This document shows positions 459 to 34,475 of a stretch of DNA of 64,000 nt, in pieces (the stretch's first letter is position 1; each line of letters starts with the position of its first letter). The stretch is taken from assembly GCF_000470315.2 (NCBI RefSeq), contig NZ_CBRF02000016.1, forward strand, positions 1 through 64,000, in the 5' to 3' direction. Position numbers and translations under genes: made by a program. Source of the stretch: Psychromonas sp. SP041 (lineage in GTDB: Bacteria; Pseudomonadota; Gammaproteobacteria; Enterobacterales; Psychromonadaceae). The notes under the pieces are model-generated. The model did not search any database. It was not told the origin of the DNA and saw only the letters and a list, made by a program, of their open reading frames with translations.

Positions 459-620
459 GTGTTAATTACTGTTTTATTCGATTTTTTGTTTGAATGATTA
501 TTTAGCGAACAACCTGCTTTATTTTTATACTAATTCATCTCTATATTTACTATTTATCTCGTTATAATGTATCCCTGTTTTATAAATTCATTATTTCTAT
601 ATATAGAGAGAGTAAATATT

Positions 621-1082
621 GTGATTAATATAGATATATTAGTTGGTAGTACATTAGGCGGAACGGAATATGTAGCTGAAGCAACACAGCCACTTTTAGA
701 AGCTGCAGGTTTTGCTTCTCAAGTTCACTTTTCTCCAGACCTGACGATGTTAGATATAGAAGGCCAACATATATGGTTAATTTGTTTAGCAACACACGGT
801 GCAGGAGATTATCCAGATAACTTTAAAATGTTTGTTGAACAGATTAATGATCTATCTGATGAATTAACGAATGTGCATTTTGGTTTAATTGGCGTTGGCG
901 ATTCAAATTACGATACTTATTGTTATGCAGCAAAATATTTTGATCTTCTGTTAAGAGATAAAGGTGCTAAGCGTTTAGGCAATATTTTCAATATTGATGT
1001 AGTGGATTCTCCAATTCCTGAAGATCGTGTTGATGATTGGATCCCATTATGGATAAAAGATCTTAATTTATTAACGAATTAA
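621..1082 (+). CDS. mioC: MioC, flavodoxin-like protein beside oriC
   Basis: Short flavodoxin-fold protein. The FMN phosphate loop GSTLGGTEYVAE is at the N-terminus and THGAGDYPDN in the middle, both as in E. coli MioC. The known biochemical role is FMN binding and support of biotin synthase activity in vitro. I take the GTG at 621 as start: it gives 153 residues (E. coli 147) and is preceded by AGAGAGAG. An in-frame ATG at 567 is unlikely because it lies inside a good -10 element (TATAAT, 563-568), so the transcript would begin after it. The gene reads toward oriC, and such transcription is known to influence initiation in E. coli. Confidence 0.9.
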   Translation: MINIDILVGSTLGGTEYVAEATQPLLEAAGFASQVHFSPDLTMLDIEGQHIWLICLATHGAGDYPDNFKMFVEQINDLSDELTNVHFGLIGVGDSNYDTYCYAAKYFDLLLRDKGAKRLGNIFNIDVVDSPIPEDRVDDWIPLWIKDLNLLTN

Positions 1083-1352
1083 TGATTAAGTTACCCACAA
1101 GGTTCTGTGCATAATTCATTTATAACTATTGAATTAGTTTGGCGTAATTACTTTATAAAAATGTGCATAAGAAGCCCTGTTGATAAAGGCTGTTTCTATA
1201 CGCAGGTTGATCGCATTAAGATCCCTTATTATGCACACGATCGGATCTCTTTTAAGATCCTGATCTTTAATCGATTAAACGTGTTCTACACAGAAATGCG
1301 TTTGCTTAATAAGTATAGTAATAAAAGATCTTTAAAGATCTATATATAATAC
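1083..1352. other. oriC: Chromosomal replication origin oriC
   Basis: Non-coding DNA between mioC and mnmG, the classical oriC position in gammaproteobacteria. Eight GATC (Dam/SeqA) sites fall between 1209 and 1340. DnaA-box-like 9-mers: TTACCCACA (1091-1099, +), TTATGCACA (1106-1114 and 1162-1170 on minus; 1229-1237 on plus), TTATCAACA (1179-1187, minus) and TTCTACACA (1284-1292, +). The AT-rich unwinding segment with two AAGATCT-type repeats (about 1320-1350) lies on the mnmG side, as in E. coli. The strongest consensus TTATCCACA is absent. The 80-codon open frame at 1107-1349 overlaps these signals and is not a gene. Confidence 0.9.
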
Positions 1353-1452
1353 TAATACTATTGTTTTCTTTTAAAACAACCTTGTTGCTTTCCTTTATTT
1401 TTTAAAAGAGTAAAATCACGCTTTAATTTTATACTGCTGTATTTGGAATATT

Positions 1453-3342
1453 ATGATTTACCATGAACAATTTGACGTTATCGTTATTGGCGGTGGCCAT
1501 GCGGGAACAGAAGCTGCTGCTGCGCCAGCTCGAATGGGATTAAAAACCCTGTTATTGACTCACAATATTGAGACTTTGGGTCAGATGTCATGTAACCCTG
1601 CTATTGGTGGGATTGGTAAAGGACATCTTGTTAAAGAGATTGATGCTTTAGGTGGCTTAATGGCATCAGCGATTGATAAAGGTGGTATTCAATTTAGAAC
1701 CCTTAATTCAAGTAAAGGACCAGCTGTTCGTGCTACTCGTGCACAAGCAGATCGTCTTCTGTACAAAGCAGCTATTCGTGAAAAACTAGAAAACCAAGAA
1801 AATTTAAAAATATTCCAACAGGAAGTTGAAGATCTTATTATTGAAAACGATCGCGTTGTTGGTGTAATTACTAAAATGGGCGTTCGCTTTTCTGCAAAAA
1901 CAGTGGTTTTGACAGTAGGTACTTTCTTAAATGGTTTAATTCATATTGGTTTAAAAAATTACAGTGGCGGTAGAGCAGGTGATCCAGCTTCGATTACGTT
2001 ATCTGATCGATTAAAAGAAATGCCATTACGTATGGGACGTTTAAAGACAGGTACACCAGCACGTATTGATGCGCGTAGTATCGACTTTTCTGGTTTAGAA
2101 GTTCAACATGGCGATGATCCAACACCTGTATTTTCATTTTTAGGTAGCCGTAGTGAACACCCTCGTCAAATTCCATGTTATATCACTCATACCAATGAGA
2201 AAACACACGATATCATTCGAGCTAATTTAGATAGAAGTCCAATGTATTCTGGTGTGATTGAAGGTGTAGGTCCTCGTTACTGCCCTTCTATTGAAGATAA
2301 GATCATGCGTTTTGCTGATAAAAATTCACATCAAATATTTGTTGAACCAGAAGGTTTAACGACCCACGAAGTTTACCCTAATGGTATTTCTACAAGTTTA
2401 CCTTTTGATGTTCAACTTGAATTTATTCAATCGATGAAAGGATTTGAGAATGCGTTTGTAACTCGACCTGGTTATGCAATTGAATATGATTATTTTGATC
2501 CACGTGATCTTAAAGCGACTTTAGAAAGCAAATATATCGATGGTTTATTTTTTGCAGGGCAAATCAATGGTACCACTGGTTATGAAGAAGCGGGAGCACA
2601 AGGCTTGTTAGCAGGTATGAATGCTGGTTTACAAGTACAAGATAAAGAAGGTTGGGCTCCTCGCCGTGATCAAGCTTACATGGGGGTTTTAGTTGATGAT
2701 CTATCAACGTTAGGTACTAAAGAACCTTACCGTATGTTTACTAGTCGTGCTGAATATCGATTACTGTTACGTGAAGACAATGCTGATACACGTTTAACAG
2801 AGAAAGGACGTGAACTTGGTTTAGTCGATGATGTTCGTTGGAAAGCCTTTAGCGAAAAACAAGAACTTGTAGAAACTGAATTAAAACGTCTAAAAGTCCA
2901 ATGGGTTAACCCAAATTCTATTAATGCCGATAAAATTAATGAATTATTGAAAAAACCTATGCAACGTGAAAGCACATTGGAAGCAATGATACGTAGACCT
3001 GAAGTGAACTATCAAAGCTTGATGAAAATTGAAGGTTTAGGACCAGCAATTGCCGATCCTATTGCTGCTGAACAAGTTGAAATAAATATAAAATATCAAG
3101 GTTATATCGATCGCCAGTTAGATGAAATTGAAAAATTGAAACGTCATGAAGACACTGCGTTACCTGTCGATCTTGATTATTCGGAGATTAAAGGTCTTTC
3201 AAATGAAGTGACGGCTAAATTAAACGATATTAAACCACACAGCATTGGACAAGCATCAAGAGTCTCGGGGATCACCCCTGCAGCTATCTCTATTTTATTA
3301 ATCTATTTAAAGAAAAGCGGCGTTCGTCGTAAGGCTGGATAA
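1453..3342 (+). CDS. mnmG: tRNA uridine-34 5-carboxymethylaminomethyl synthesis enzyme MnmG (GidA)
   Basis: FAD-dependent half of the MnmEG complex, which builds the cmnm5 group on the wobble uridine of several tRNAs. Its partner MnmE is encoded at 30359-31726. The dinucleotide-binding motif GGGHAG is at residues 13-18. Family blocks [11 protein letters not shown] (near residue 273, with the conserved Cys) and GYEEAGAQG (near 380) are intact. Length is 629 residues, identical to E. coli. It directly follows oriC and overlaps the next gene by one base (TAATG), so it is cotranscribed with rsmG. Confidence 0.98.
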
Positions 3343-3968
3343 TGAATTTACGTTCTCAATTAGATAGCCTTTTAGCACAAACTGACTTAATTGTAACTGA
3401 TCAACAGGCCTCTCAACTAGTAGCGTTAGTAGAGCTATTAGCTAAGTGGAACAAAGCCTATAACCTTACTTCTGTCCGTGATCCATCACAAATGCTTGTC
3501 AAACATATTTTGGACAGTATAGTCGTATCTCCTTATTTACAGGGCAATAGCTTTATTGACGTTGGTACTGGACCAGGATTACCTGGCTTACCTTTGGCTA
3601 TTTTAAATCCTGATAAGCAATTTGTTTTATTAGATAGTTTAGGGAAGCGAATGCGTTTTATTCGTCAAGCTATTCTTAGCTTAGGGCTTAAAAACGTTGA
3701 AATAGTACAAAGTCGCGTTGAAGAATATCAACCAGAAGTTGGTTTTGATTGTGTGTTAAGTCGTGCCTTTGCTTCATTGGAAGATATGCTATCTTGGTGC
3801 AGTCACTTACCTAATGAAAGTGGACATTTTTTAGCCCTTAAAGGGCAATATCCTGAATCTGAAGTAGTTAATTTAGATTCTAAATTTGAATTTATAGAGT
3901 CAGTTACATTACAAGTCCCACAATTAGATGGTGAACGCTGTTTAGTCAAAGTTAAGCGTGTATCGTAA
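3342..3968 (+). CDS. rsmG: 16S rRNA m7G527 methyltransferase RsmG (GidB)
   Basis: SAM-dependent methyltransferase that makes N7-methylguanosine at 16S position 527. The SAM-binding loop [15 protein letters not shown] starts at residue 73, and [13 protein letters not shown] near residue 35 is a family signature. Length is 208 residues (E. coli 207). The start overlaps the mnmG stop (TAATG), indicating translational coupling. Confidence 0.97.
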
Positions 3969-3998
3969 TAACTCTCATATATTATTAAGTAGGTTTTT

Positions 3999-4793
3999 GT
4001 GGGTAAAATAATAGCAATTGCAAATCAAAAAGGTGGTGTAGGCAAAACCACTACTTGTGTTAATTTAGCGGCTTCAATGGCTGCAACAAAACGCAAAGTA
4101 CTTATTATCGATCTCGATCCTCAAGGTAATGCCACCATGGGTAGTGGTATCGATAAATATGAAGTTGCACATACAGCCTATGATCTATTAATCGATGAGT
4201 TACCGCTTTCTGACGTTGTTGAAACTGAAACAACAGGTGGTTTTCATTTAGTGGCCGCTAATAGCGATGTTACTGCAGCTGAAGTTAAGTTAATGACCTT
4301 TTTCGCACGTGAAACCCGTTTAAGAACGGCTTTAGAAGGTGCTAGAGAGGTTTACGATTATATCTTTATTGATTGTCCTCCTTCATTGAATATGCTGACT
4401 GTTAATGCCATGACAGCAGCAGATTCAGTATTAGTACCAATGCAGTGTGAGTATTATGCTTTAGAAGGATTAACAGCCTTAATCGATACCATAAGCAAAT
4501 TAACTGCTGTTGTTAATGCAGATCTTAAGATCGAGGGTATTTTACGTACGATGTACGATCCTAGAAATAGATTATCTACCGATGTATCAGATCAGCTTAA
4601 AAAACATTTTGGCGATAAAGTTTACCGTACGATCATCCCTCGTAACATTCGTTTAGCTGAAGCACCTAGTTTCAGTAAACCGGTGATGTATTATGATAAA
4701 AACTCAACGGGTGCAAGAGCTTATTTGTCATTAGCCGGTGAAATATTAAGACGAGAAGAACAATCTATCAGTACTGATCAGGAAGTGATTTAA
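3999..4793 (+). CDS. parA: Chromosome partitioning ATPase ParA
   Basis: Deviant Walker-type ATPase that, with ParB-parS complexes, moves the origin region to its cell address. KGGVGKTT is at residues 11-18, and [11 protein letters not shown] and FIDCPPSLN supply the Walker A' and B segments. It lacks an N-terminal DNA-binding extension, so it is of the chromosomal (type Ib/Soj) kind. Start is GTG at 3999. One base separates it from parB, so the two form an operon, probably continuing from mnmG-rsmG. Confidence 0.96.
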
Positions 4794-30358: not shown

Positions 30359-31726
30359 ATGATAAAAGCGACTGATACAATTGTTGCACAAGCAACTGCT
30401 CCTGGGCGTGGTGGTGTTGGCATTGTGCGTGTTTCTGGACCTGATGCAGAAGCGGTTGCACAAATTGTTTTAGGTAAGTTACCTAAAGTACGTTATGCAG
30501 AATACCTCCCTTTTCACGACCAAAATAACGAAGTGTTAGACCAAGGTATTGCGATATTATTTAAAGGGCCTAATTCATTTACAGGTGAAGATGTATTAGA
30601 GCTTCAGGGACATGGCGGTCCAGTTGTAATGGATATGCTGATCAAAGCTATCTTAACCATTAAAAACCTTCGTAGTGCCAATCCTGGTGAGTTCTCTGAA
30701 CGTGCATTTATGAATGATAAGCTAGATTTAGCACAAGCAGAGGCTATTGCTGACTTAATTGAAGCTAGCTCAGAACAAGCAGCAAAAAGCGCTTTAAATT
30801 CGTTACAGGGTGAATTTTCGAATAAAGTAAATGATTTAGTTGAAAGCCTTATCTATTTACGTATTTATGTTGAAGCGTCAATTGACTTCCCTGAAGAAGA
30901 AGTGGACTTTTTAAGCGATGGAAAAATAGCAAAAGACCTTTACCAGATTATCGATAACCTGAGTGCGGTAAAAGAACAAGCCAAACAAGGTGCGATTTTA
31001 CGAGATGGTATGAAAGTGGTGATTGCTGGACGCCCTAATGCAGGTAAATCGAGTTTATTAAACACATTAGTGGGTAAAGAAAGTGCGATTGTAACAGATA
31101 TTGCGGGCACAACCCGAGATGTGATGCGGGAACACATTCACATTGATGGTATGCCATTACATATAATTGATACTGCTGGTTTACGTGAAGGTGTGGATGA
31201 AGTTGAACGTATCGGTATTGAGCGAGCTTGGACTGAAATTCAAAATGCAGACCGCATTTTATTTATGCTCGATGCAACAACAACTGATGCTGAAGACCCT
31301 CGTGAAATTTGGCCTGACTTTATTGAAAAGTTACCTAAAGGCGTAGGCTTAACCGTTGTACGTAATAAAGCCGATTTAACAGGTGAAGCGTTATCAATGA
31401 CTGAGCATGAAAATCACCCTGTTTATCGAATTTCTGCGAAAACAGGTTTAGGTGTTGATGATTTAAAACAACACCTTAAAGATATAATGGGCTATCAAGG
31501 TAATACTGAAGGCGGCTTTATGGCAAGACGTCGTCATTTAGAAGCGATTGATCAGGCTGAGAAACATTTACTTGAAGGTAAAGTACAACTCGAAGAGTAT
31601 CAAGCAGGTGAATTACTGGCAGAAGAGTTGCGTTTAACACAGCAACACTTAAGTGAGATAACCGGTGAATTTACATCTGATGACTTATTAGGGCGTATCT
31701 TCTCAAGCTTCTGTATTGGTAAATAA
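30359..31726 (+). CDS. mnmE: tRNA modification GTPase MnmE
   Basis: GTPase partner of MnmG. N-terminal formyl-THF-binding domain, helical domain, and an inserted G domain with P-loop GRPNAGKS (224-231), TTRD switch, DTAG and NKAD. The C-terminal CIGK (452-455) supplies the essential Cys. Length is 455 residues (E. coli 454). It starts right after the yidC terminator. Confidence 0.98.
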
Positions 31727-31784: not shown

Positions 31785-32168
31785 ATGCTCATTTTTACTA
31801 AATAAAATTAAAAAATATTTATAATTACTTTACGTATTAGAAGCTCAATACCGCTTTAATAAATCAATTTGTACTTATGTTGCTTTTCTAGGTAGCGTGG
31901 TTATTTTTGTTACTTGGGCTGAAATTGTAATGGGATGAATTTATAAAATAGTTAATATAAAAATAGTAGAGGAACTAAGCTCATATTTAGAAATACAATT
32001 TATCTTCACTCCTCTTATAGACTTCTTTATAAAAATTTCTATTTACTTACTGCTTTTTAAAATGACAGGTAATAACAGTTTTTAAAGCAGATCAAATTAT
32101 TTTTTAATCTGTATTTTAACGATAATCAAGTTTTTGAAGTCATTGACCCATTTTCTATAGTTTACTCT
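31785..32168. other. AT-rich interval before the CsrB pair
   Basis: No gene supported. One open frame ending near 31935 reads like a hydrophobic peptide (LGSVVIFVTWAEIVMG) but has no start codon, so I leave it uncalled. From about 32125 the sequence resembles the DNA upstream of the second RNA copy (from about 32865), which sets the left edge of the duplication. Confidence 0.5.
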
Positions 32169-32186
32169 TGTGAGACATTGACCATA
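32169..32186 (+). promoter_or_regulatory. Putative GacA/UvrY-type activator site of RNA copy 1
   Basis: TGTGAGACATTGACCATA. The left half equals the start of the UvrY/GacA box of E. coli csrB/csrC (TGTGAGAGATCTCTTACA); the right half matches poorly. It is repeated with one change before copy 2 and lies about 150 bp before the proposed RNA start. Function is inferred from position and conservation. Confidence 0.45.
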
Positions 32187-32320
32187 GCCAATAGAGGTTA
32201 TTGTACTTTTTATTCGAGGTTATTTAATTTAAAAAAACAATAAAAACACATAAGTCATTGTTTTTAATTTAATTGTTGTTTTTCGTGTGATGAGAGTCAG
32301 TCATTAAATATTATCTTTAC

Positions 32321-32737
32321 CCCTTTTATTTTAGAAAGACCGTAATATCTATCTTGCAAACGGGGATTGATTTACAGGATGTAAAATTTGAACCTTTGTA
32401 TTGCTAGGATGGCAATTTGGACCTCTCAGGATGAGAGCTTATAAAACAGGAAGTTTTATAATTAAGGATGATCAGGACACTCCAGGATGGAGTTTTTAGT
32501 ACCTACTAGGATTGTAGTTATTTAAGCCAGGATGGCAAAAGAAGGACACCTCCTAAGGACAGGGAGATGACGGATAAACAAGATGTTTATCTAATATGGA
32601 TATTACAAGGATGAACCCAAAGAATTTGGGAAGTGGACGCCTAGTTTGGCTTAGTCAAAAGGATGTACTGCAGGGAGCATCAACTATCACGGATTCGATA
32701 GAAAGACTAAATTAAGGGCAGCTTCGGCTGCCCTTTC
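32321..32737 (+). ncRNA. csrB: CsrB-family regulatory RNA, copy 1
   Basis: About 415 nt that sequester the translational regulator CsrA/RsmA. There is no ORF, but GGA occurs some 18 times, mostly as AGGAT or AGGA in the loop of a short hairpin: ACTCC-AGGAT-GGAGT, GCC-AGGAT-GGC, TTGC-TAGGATG-GCAA, AAAAC-AGGA-AGTTTT, CTAC-TAGGATT-GTAG. It ends in the terminator AAGGGCAGC-TTCG-GCTGCCCTTT (32714-32736). This design defines the CsrB/CsrC family. The 5' end is uncertain: I place it after a TATTAT at 32309-32314, but a start near 32355 is possible. Copy 1 has AAAGAAT where copy 2 has AAAGGAT, losing one GGA. Confidence 0.88.
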
Positions 32738-32740
32738 CTG

Positions 32741-32758
32741 TTTCTGGAATACCAGAAA
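32741..32758. repeat. Hairpin after RNA copy 1
   Basis: TTTCTGG-AATA-CCAGAAA, a perfect 7-bp stem just after the csrB terminator. On the minus strand it precedes the csrB stem. It could back up termination on either strand. Confidence 0.7.
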
Positions 32759-32822
32759 TTATTTACCTAGTTTTACCTTTTACCTACCTATAGAATTTCT
32801 TTTCGTACAAGTATTTAAAGTG

Positions 32823-32861
32823 TTACTTCAATTGATGTTTTAAACTATCTTCTAGTAACCT
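32823..32861 (-). pseudogene. Remnant of the epimerase gene 3' end
   Basis: On the minus strand this reads LLEDSLKHQLK-stop, exactly the last residues of the TIGR01777 epimerase at 33558-34475. The only nucleotide changes in that tail are synonymous. Homology stops just before this. It is the scar of the tandem duplication that copied the RNA gene together with the neighbouring gene's tail. Confidence 0.85.
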
Positions 32862-32904
32862 CAATTTTTTGAAAGTGATTTATCGATTTGATCTGGTTTA
32901 TCCT

Positions 32905-32922
32905 TGTGAGACATTGGCCATA
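32905..32922 (+). promoter_or_regulatory. Putative GacA/UvrY-type activator site of RNA copy 2
   Basis: TGTGAGACATTGGCCATA, one base different from the copy-1 site and at the same distance from its RNA. Flanking bases AG(C)(C/T)AATAGAGGTTATTGTAC are also conserved between copies. Confidence 0.45.
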
Positions 32923-33056
32923 GCTAATAGAGGTTATTGTACTTTTTATTCGAAGTTATTTAATTAAAAAAATAATTAAAAAATTACAAGTCATTGTTTT
33001 TAATTTGTTTGTTGTTTTTGGTGTGATAATAGTTAGTTATTAAATATTATCTTTAC

Positions 33057-33472
33057 CCCTTTTATTTTAGAAAGACCGTAATATCTATCTTGCAAACAGG
33101 GATTGATTTACAGGATGTAAAATTTGAACCTTTGTATTGCTAGGATGGCAATTTGGACCTCTCAGGATGAGAGCTTATAAAACAGGATGTTTTATAATTA
33201 AGGATGATCAGGACACTCTAGGATGGAGTTTTTAGTATCTACTAGGATTGTAGTTATTAAGCCAGGATGGCAAAAGAAGGACACCTCCTAAGGACAGGGA
33301 GATGACGGATAAACAAGATGTTTATCTAATATGGATATTACAAGGATGAACCCAAAGGATTTGGGAAGTGGACGCCTAGTTTGGCTTAGTCAAAAGGATG
33401 TACTGCAGGGAGCATCAACTATCACGGATTCGATAGAAAGACTAAATTAAGGGCAGCTTCGGCTGCCCTTTC
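33057..33472 (+). ncRNA. csrB: CsrB-family regulatory RNA, copy 2
   Basis: Tandem copy of the RNA at 32321, offset by 735-736 bp. By eye there are six differences over ~415 nt: five substitutions and one single-base indel. All preserve the hairpins: AAAAC-AGGAT-GTTTT here against AGGA-A in copy 1, and CCCAAAGGATTTGGG here restores a GGA that copy 1 lacks. It has the same terminator (33449-33471). Each copy has its own upstream element and start region, so the two are likely separate transcripts. The 5' end is uncertain as for copy 1. Confidence 0.88.
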
Positions 33473-33475
33473 CTG

Positions 33476-33493
33476 TTTCTGGAATACCAGAAA
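33476..33493. repeat. Hairpin after RNA copy 2
   Basis: TTTCTGG-AATA-CCAGAAA, identical to that after copy 1. Here it lies 64 bp from the epimerase stop and may help end both convergent transcripts. Confidence 0.7.
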
Positions 33494-33557
33494 TTATTTA
33501 CCTAGTTTTACCTTTTACCTACCTATAGAATTTCTTTTCGTACAACTATTTAAAGTG

Positions 33558-34475
33558 TTACTTCAATTGATGTTTTAAACTGTCTTCTAATAATTCGTAC
33601 TCAAACTTAAAGCCCGCTTTTAATAACTTTGTAGGACGTACGTTAGTACTTGAAAGTAATAATTCTTTACCCATTTGTCCAAATAGTAGCGTTATTAAAA
33701 ATGCTGGTAATGGCAATATGCAAGGACGTTTTAGAATATTAGCCAATATAATGGAAAAGGTTTTATTATTGACTGGATGTGGAGAAACTAAGTTAATAGG
33801 ACCAACCAACTTTGATTGTTCAATAATAAATAAAATAGCATTTAACTGATCTTTTAAATCTATCCAGCTCATGACTTGTTTGCCAGAACCTATTTTTCCA
33901 CCAAATCCCATGTTAAAGGCTGGTAACATTTTCGCTAAGGCCCCTTCTTTGTTATTTAAAACAATACCGGTACGTAGATTAACAATACGTGTTTTTGGCG
34001 ATGTTATCTGCTGGCAAGTCAGTTCCCACCTATCCGCCAATTCACTGACGAAATCTTTGCCCTTTGAGGTTCCTTCATCTACTGGTTGTTGCCCTCTATC
34101 GCCATAAAATCCAATAGCTGAAGCACAAATAAGTAAACTAGGTGGTGCTGCACTGTTGTTGATGAAGTCGACTAAAAGTTGTGTTGATTGTATGCGGCTG
34201 TTAGTGATTTTTTCTTTTGCTTTTGTTGTCCAGCGAGAATTGGCAATATTTTCACCTGCTAGATGGATAATAATATTAGGAGTTGGGCATCCATTGAGGT
34301 GTATTTCTTGTTTTTCTATATTCCAATAAGGTCGGGTTGAGTCAGGAGTACGTTGCAAAGCATGAACAATATAGCCCTGTGCTTCTAAGAATGGCACTAG
34401 TGCACTCCCAATTAAACCAGAAGCGCCTGTTATTAAAACGTTGTTATTACTATCCGCTGTTTTACTCATGACCAT
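33558..34475 (-). CDS. TIGR01777 family NAD(P)-dependent epimerase (YfcH-like)
   Basis: Extended short-chain dehydrogenase fold. The dinucleotide loop GASGLIGSAL (about residues 17-26) is N-terminal. IHLAGENIANSRWT, ASAIGFYGDRG with the catalytic-type Tyr, and NLRTGIVL are the marks of the TIGR01777/YfcH family. 305 residues, full length. Substrate is unknown. The start could be either Met in MVMSK. It is convergent with the CsrB pair, and its last ~11 codons are duplicated at 32823-32861. Confidence 0.9.
   Translation of the reverse strand: MVMSKTADSNNNVLITGASGLIGSALVPFLEAQGYIVHALQRTPDSTRPYWNIEKQEIHLNGCPTPNIIIHLAGENIANSRWTTKAKEKITNSRIQSTQLLVDFINNSAAPPSLLICASAIGFYGDRGQQPVDEGTSKGKDFVSELADRWELTCQQITSPKTRIVNLRTGIVLNNKEGALAKMLPAFNMGFGGKIGSGKQVMSWIDLKDQLNAILFIIEQSKLVGPINLVSPHPVNNKTFSIILANILKRPCILPLPAFLITLLFGQMGKELLLSSTNVRPTKLLKAGFKFEYELLEDSLKHQLK

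Follow-up and report, generated by a model that had tools for sequence, protein, structure and literature searches.

Two head-to-tail CsrB-family sponge RNA genes with nearly identical bodies and diverging upstream regions in Psychromonas sp. SP041

Psychromonas sp. SP041 (G000; an assembly of 4.80 Mb in 121 contigs) harbors two CsrB-family genes that lie head-to-tail between mnmE and a yfcH-like gene, within a stretch of 64,000 nucleotides that we refer to as the window (Table 1). A preliminary description of this DNA had proposed two such genes about 735 bp apart, and we indeed find direct copies spaced by 735-736 bp from start to start, and the second duplication unit extends as far as the yfcH-like 3' end. 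A UvrY-type box, a -10 and a terminator are present separately for each copy. The GGGCAGC-TTCG-GCTGCCC terminator named in that description is seen in both copies, as a 9-bp stem with a TTCG loop and a T run. The RNA ends are predictions that were set from the -10-like TAATAT and the terminator; the predicted RNAs of 382 and 381 nt are shorter than the ~415 nt given before. The MnmE protein of the window is 95% identical to P. arctica MnmE. At 567-3342 the window contains a mioC-like ORF, three DnaA boxes (TTATGCACA) at ~1106-1237 and an mnmG-like ORF, the two ORF names being our assumption. The start of the window is probably oriC, and it is plausible that the csrB pair lies close to it, ~31 kb away.

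Table 1. Features of the csrB pair and its neighbours (window positions), and of the third Csr-like RNA of the same genome
Feature	Position	Strand	Basis
mnmE, upstream neighbour	30359..31726	+	NCBIfam NF003661; syntenic in relatives
Extent of tandem duplication, ~735 bp units	32131..33585	+	
UvrY-type box, copy 1, TGTGAGACATTGACCATA	32169..32186	+	17/18 against Salmonella csrC box; zero-mismatch genome match
-10-like TAATAT, copy 1	32343..32348	+	Position; TATTAT/TAATAT...GCAAA context conserved across copies
csrB copy 1 RNA (predicted), 382 nt, 23 GGA	~32356..32737	+	Rfam RF00018 at 32382-32745; GGA counts
Intrinsic terminator, copy 1, TTCG loop, short T run	32714..32736	+	Sequence; stem kept in consensus fold
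UvrY-type box, copy 2, TGTGAGACATTGGCCATA	32905..32922	+	16/18 against Salmonella csrC box; zero-mismatch genome match
-10-like TAATAT, copy 2	33079..33084	+	Position; TATTAT/TAATAT...GCAAA context
csrB copy 2 RNA (predicted), 381 nt, 24 GGA	~33092..33472	+	Rfam RF00018 at 33118-33480
Intrinsic terminator, copy 2	33449..33471	+	Sequence
yfcH-like oxidoreductase, downstream neighbour	33558..34475	-	NCBIfam TIGR01777, 306.1 bits
Third Csr-like RNA (predicted), ~784 nt, 58 GGA	L149:7336-8119, G000:C8	-	Same box, -10 and terminator

Membership in the CsrB family was checked with the Rfam covariance model (RF00018). Copy 1 scores 73.1 bits over model positions 1-356, above the curated cut-off of 71, and copy 2, whose RNA body is 98.8% identical to that of copy 1, scores 70.4 bits (E 3.4e-18), 0.6 bits under this cut-off. 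Matches of 23 bits to PhrS (cut-off 37) also cover both copies and were taken as chance. The copies contain 23 and 24 GGA motifs, more than the about 18 that had been counted earlier; letter shuffles of each stretch give 8.0 (s.d. 2.3-2.4, maximum 15 and 16, 2000 shuffles each), and 382-nt stretches elsewhere in the window, on both strands and outside 31900-33700 on the plus strand, hold at most 10. The idea that these motifs are mostly AGGAT in short hairpin loops holds for the loops only in part: in single-sequence minimum-energy folds 6/23 and 7/24 GGA fall entirely within hairpin loops and 12/23 and 14/24 are wholly unpaired, and AGGAT occurs 9 and 11 times. A consensus fold of 8 relatives has 105 pairs, 6 of which are changed on both sides. 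The Rfam match, the GGA excess, the UvrY-type boxes and the presence of CsrA and UvrY genes support the original assignment as CsrB-type sponge genes.

According to the accessible text of PMC4682653, the SirA/UvrY box of Salmonella csrC is TGTGAGACATTGACCATT and the UvrY box of E. coli csrB is centred at -183/-182. Both boxes in the window are centred ~178 bp before the predicted RNA start. Using GGA density in 23 Psychromonas genomes, we collected 50 Csr-like RNAs, of which 49 had enough upstream sequence. Upstream of 48 of these 49 RNAs lies a site that departs from the Salmonella csrC box at no more than 4 positions, 2 of the sites being exact, and shuffles reach this level in 0.16% of 2450 cases. 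When G000, with its three Csr RNAs, was scanned with a box pattern, only three zero-mismatch matches were found, each preceding a different one of these RNAs. Since these very sites were used to define the pattern, the scan checks specificity and is not a discovery; at two mismatches the 20 matches in all are near the control level, with 13 for the reversed pattern. The palindromic Gac box TGTAAG-N6-CTTACA was also tried. In front of the 49 RNAs it matches at best with 2 to 5 mismatches, and the matches at the window copies have 3 each and are misplaced; the csrC-type box fits instead.

CsrA has one match in G000, and UvrY is intact with 214 residues (404.5 bits). By analogy to the E. coli system, phosphorylated UvrY would be expected to switch on both genes, and each RNA would bind several CsrA dimers at its GGA sites, leading to the release of CsrA target mRNAs. 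A sponge dosage doubled by the two copies, as suggested in the preliminary description, is plausible. In Vibrio tasmaniensis, deletion of some csrB copies makes the remaining copies rise, as the accessible part of PMC6262261 reports, and therefore dosage may not be simply additive.

We then compared copy number across the genus. An Rfam CsrB match is found in 23 of 24 Psychromonas genomes, and in G005, which has no Rfam match, GGA density places a csrB at the mnmE locus. Further upstream in the same genome, beside a porin-like ORF, there is a shorter stretch rich in GGA, with a terminator, which resembles a decayed copy; the two features are L151:3194-3293 and 3685-4011. The mnmE locus was judged in 23 of the 24 genomes, as G020 (51% complete) shows no mnmE, and it holds between 0 and 3 copies. 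Two or three are present in 11 genomes (G000, G002, G006, G007, G010, G011, G014, G016, G017, G022 and G023) and a single one in another 11, and no csrB copy was found at the mnmE locus of G015. In G023 mnmE lies on a contig other than that of the copies, and in G011 (L128) an NhaP-like gene sits between the two mnmE-linked copies. It had been considered earlier that the pair might be an assembly artefact, with one gene counted twice. The repeat does break contigs in the relative G017, where two contig ends carry a copy each. However, the upstream regions of the two window copies are only 73.7% identical and thus differ by about a quarter, the same pair occurs in the sister genome G016, an assembly of 2 contigs, and three copies in G022, a single contig. 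An artefact is therefore extremely unlikely.

Within a genome, the two copies are far more alike in their RNA bodies than upstream. In four members of the clade with two copies, the bodies are 98.8 (G000), 98.5 (G016), 99.5 (G023) and 99.5% (G014) identical, and the upstream regions 73.7, 70.6, 73.0 and 48.6%, respectively. In G014 the downstream flanks are 32.6% identical, so that both flanks of its copies are at background level. Such similar bodies could mean that each species duplicated the gene recently and independently, and that the copies are alike because they are young; gains and losses do occur, as the range of copy number in the genus indicates. The upstream regions speak against this, because in G000, G016 and G023 they are most similar to those at the same position in the other species: between G000 and G016 the identity is 94.8% for copy 1 and 79.5% for copy 2, against 73.7 and 70.6% between the two copies of either genome. 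We therefore regard young, independent duplications as unlikely, all the more since the copies of G014 have flanks at background identity.

To follow this site by site, we used quartets of both copies from two genomes, in which a site counts as concerted when the two copies of one genome share a letter that neither copy of the other genome has, and as orthologous when it follows position. For G000/G016 the upstream regions have 1 concerted and 39 orthologous sites, again at odds with recent duplication, and the bodies are nearly uninformative, with 1 concerted, 0 orthologous and 1 crossed site. The ratio of concerted to orthologous sites is 12:0 in the body and 14:17 upstream for G000/G023 (Fisher p 0.001), and 11:0 and 11:13 for G016/G023. 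G014 against G000, G016 and G023 gives 52:0, 50:0 and 46:0 in the body and 33:9, 24:6 and 27:6 upstream. Over six tests Fisher p ranges from 0.0004 to 0.049, values to be read with the caution that the sites are not independent and the tests not separate. In the tree, copies of the same genome group with starred support in G014, G017 and G022, and not in G000, G016, G023, G002, G007, G010 and G011; copy 2 of the window groups with a G016 copy. Given this grouping and the few informative body sites, homogenisation between G000 and G016 is at most a tentative reading.

Purifying selection alone, acting without gene conversion, would also keep bodies similar, and the body is more conserved than the flanks in all pairwise comparisons, with GGA motifs and stems under constraint. 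Yet under selection orthologues should be no more distant than paralogues, and the G014 bodies are 99.5% identical to each other and 84.2-89.0% identical to the bodies of other genomes, with 46-52 concerted and no orthologous sites in their quartets. We consider this explanation very unlikely. The natural reading of bodies that appear homogenised while upstream regions diverge in this clade would be gene conversion over the RNA part. Judging from the site patterns, the gene was probably duplicated before three sister species separated; gene conversion would then have maintained the near identity of the RNA parts, with the upstream regions diverging by descent. Taken together, we hold it to be highly probable that the pair represents two complete, separately promoted CsrB sponge-RNA genes that are switched by UvrY, with a duplication that pre-dates the three sister species and gene conversion since then. 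Bodies follow orthology in two other Psychromonas lineages (G002/G007 with 1:35 and G010/G011 with 2:23 concerted to orthologous sites), in G159/G226 (0:44) and in the group f2, where G101/G172, with a 219-aa ORF between the copies, has a body ratio of 0:77 and is not homogenised. Conversion would hence be a feature of some lineages and not of tandem csrB as such. A search of the open-licence literature for CsrB together with concerted evolution found no joint paper, which is not proof of absence.

The third Csr-like RNA of G000 is built from repeats, with 5.5 copies of an 81-nt unit that holds 7 GGA each; this genome is fragmented and the exact repeat number is therefore provisional. The third RNA of G016 has 6.7 repeat copies (~864 nt, 64 GGA) and that of G023 has 2.5 copies of an 85-nt unit. 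Among seven other RNAs of the clade in the tree, six have no array and that of G015 has a 63-nt repeat in 2.0 copies; internal repeats of some kind occur in 11 of the 50 Csr-like RNAs. Published GGA numbers are 22 for E. coli CsrB and 25 for Pf1 (PMC11882849). An NhaP-like gene neighbours the third sponge in other genomes, and it is the NhaP-like gene between the mnmE-linked copies of G011 (L128) that gives a hint that the third sponge came from the mnmE-linked array. G002 and G011 also contain a divergent pair of Csr-like RNAs, L115:4451-4802 (+) and L129:5106-5567 (-), which share the UvrY-type box, differ in their terminator and sit apart in the tree on a long branch.

PMC6262261 raises, as an open question, why bacteria maintain several Csr sponges that are nearly redundant. 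The same RNAs behind different promoters offer a natural case that separates dose from diversity of input, and the repeat-built third RNA would provide natural length variants for testing the effect of binding-site number. If our reading is true, the same sponge would answer to different inputs, and repeat number would be an evolutionary dial on CsrA titration. Whether sponge capacity evolves on two such levels, with tandem bodies held by conversion behind free promoters and a third sponge of 81-nt modules as the dial, is a suggestion that we put forward tentatively, as one with a real but somewhat weaker claim than its opposite.

Tandem csrB pairs also exist outside this genus. In a survey of 295 genomes of the order a CsrB match was present in 161, including 17 Psychromonas genomes. 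At least 20 of the 144 other CsrB-positive genomes have two or three matches within 3 kb on one strand, by inspection of the matches listed. Among those 20 listed, an ORF of ~219 residues lies between the copies in 11, all of group f2, which we presume to be Shewanella; in the other 9 the longest intervening ORF has at most 113 residues. The earlier view that a tandem pair is unusual is thus not supported, and cases in Shewanella, Aliivibrio and Pseudomonas are published. The linkage to mnmE was sought in other genera by a GGA-density scan of 80 named mnmE loci, and only the 4 Psychromonas loci gave a strong stretch that lies on the same strand as mnmE, in the gap before the following gene. 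Weaker GGA stretches occur elsewhere (L051, L081, L106 and others); 3 were tested and none is CsrB in Rfam.

The window genes resemble E. coli CsrB/CsrC (RF00018) in their multiple GGA motifs, the terminator, a far-upstream UvrY box (here at about -178) and a genome that also encodes CsrA and UvrY. They differ in that the window copies are almost identical and side by side, whereas the two E. coli RNAs are unlike each other and come from separate loci. The Aliivibrio-like pair G216/G252 has the same concerted pattern as the window clade (body 13:0, upstream 2:12), and G034 has a body identity of 98.7% with flanks at 55.7 and 52.2%. Flank identities from a gap-friendly alignment, which raises unrelated sequence to about 70-80%, were set aside for the surveyed pairs. 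In Aliivibrio salmonicida csrB3 adjoins csrB2, a neighbouring pair as here but at a different locus, which the accessible part of PMC6262261 reads as a recent duplication (one sentence names Aeromonas) and for which that part does not discuss gene conversion. Shewanella oneidensis csrB1 and csrB2 are, in the accessible text of PMC3171408, likewise neighbours that both have a putative UvrY box and show up on Northern blots; unlike the window pair, they flank a transposase gene, a layout shared by the group f2 genomes with their 219-aa ORF. Pseudomonas rsmX-1/rsmX-2 is a tandem duplicate of a CsrA/RsmA-binding RNA gene, but these RNAs differ in being ~110 nt long and 75% identical to each other, according to the accessible part of PMC7911923. 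As far as the sequences tell, the pair is ordinary in kind, a tandem of UvrY-boxed Csr sponge genes, and unusual in detail, with apparently homogenised bodies and diverging promoters in this clade and a third sponge that seems to have expanded by repeats.
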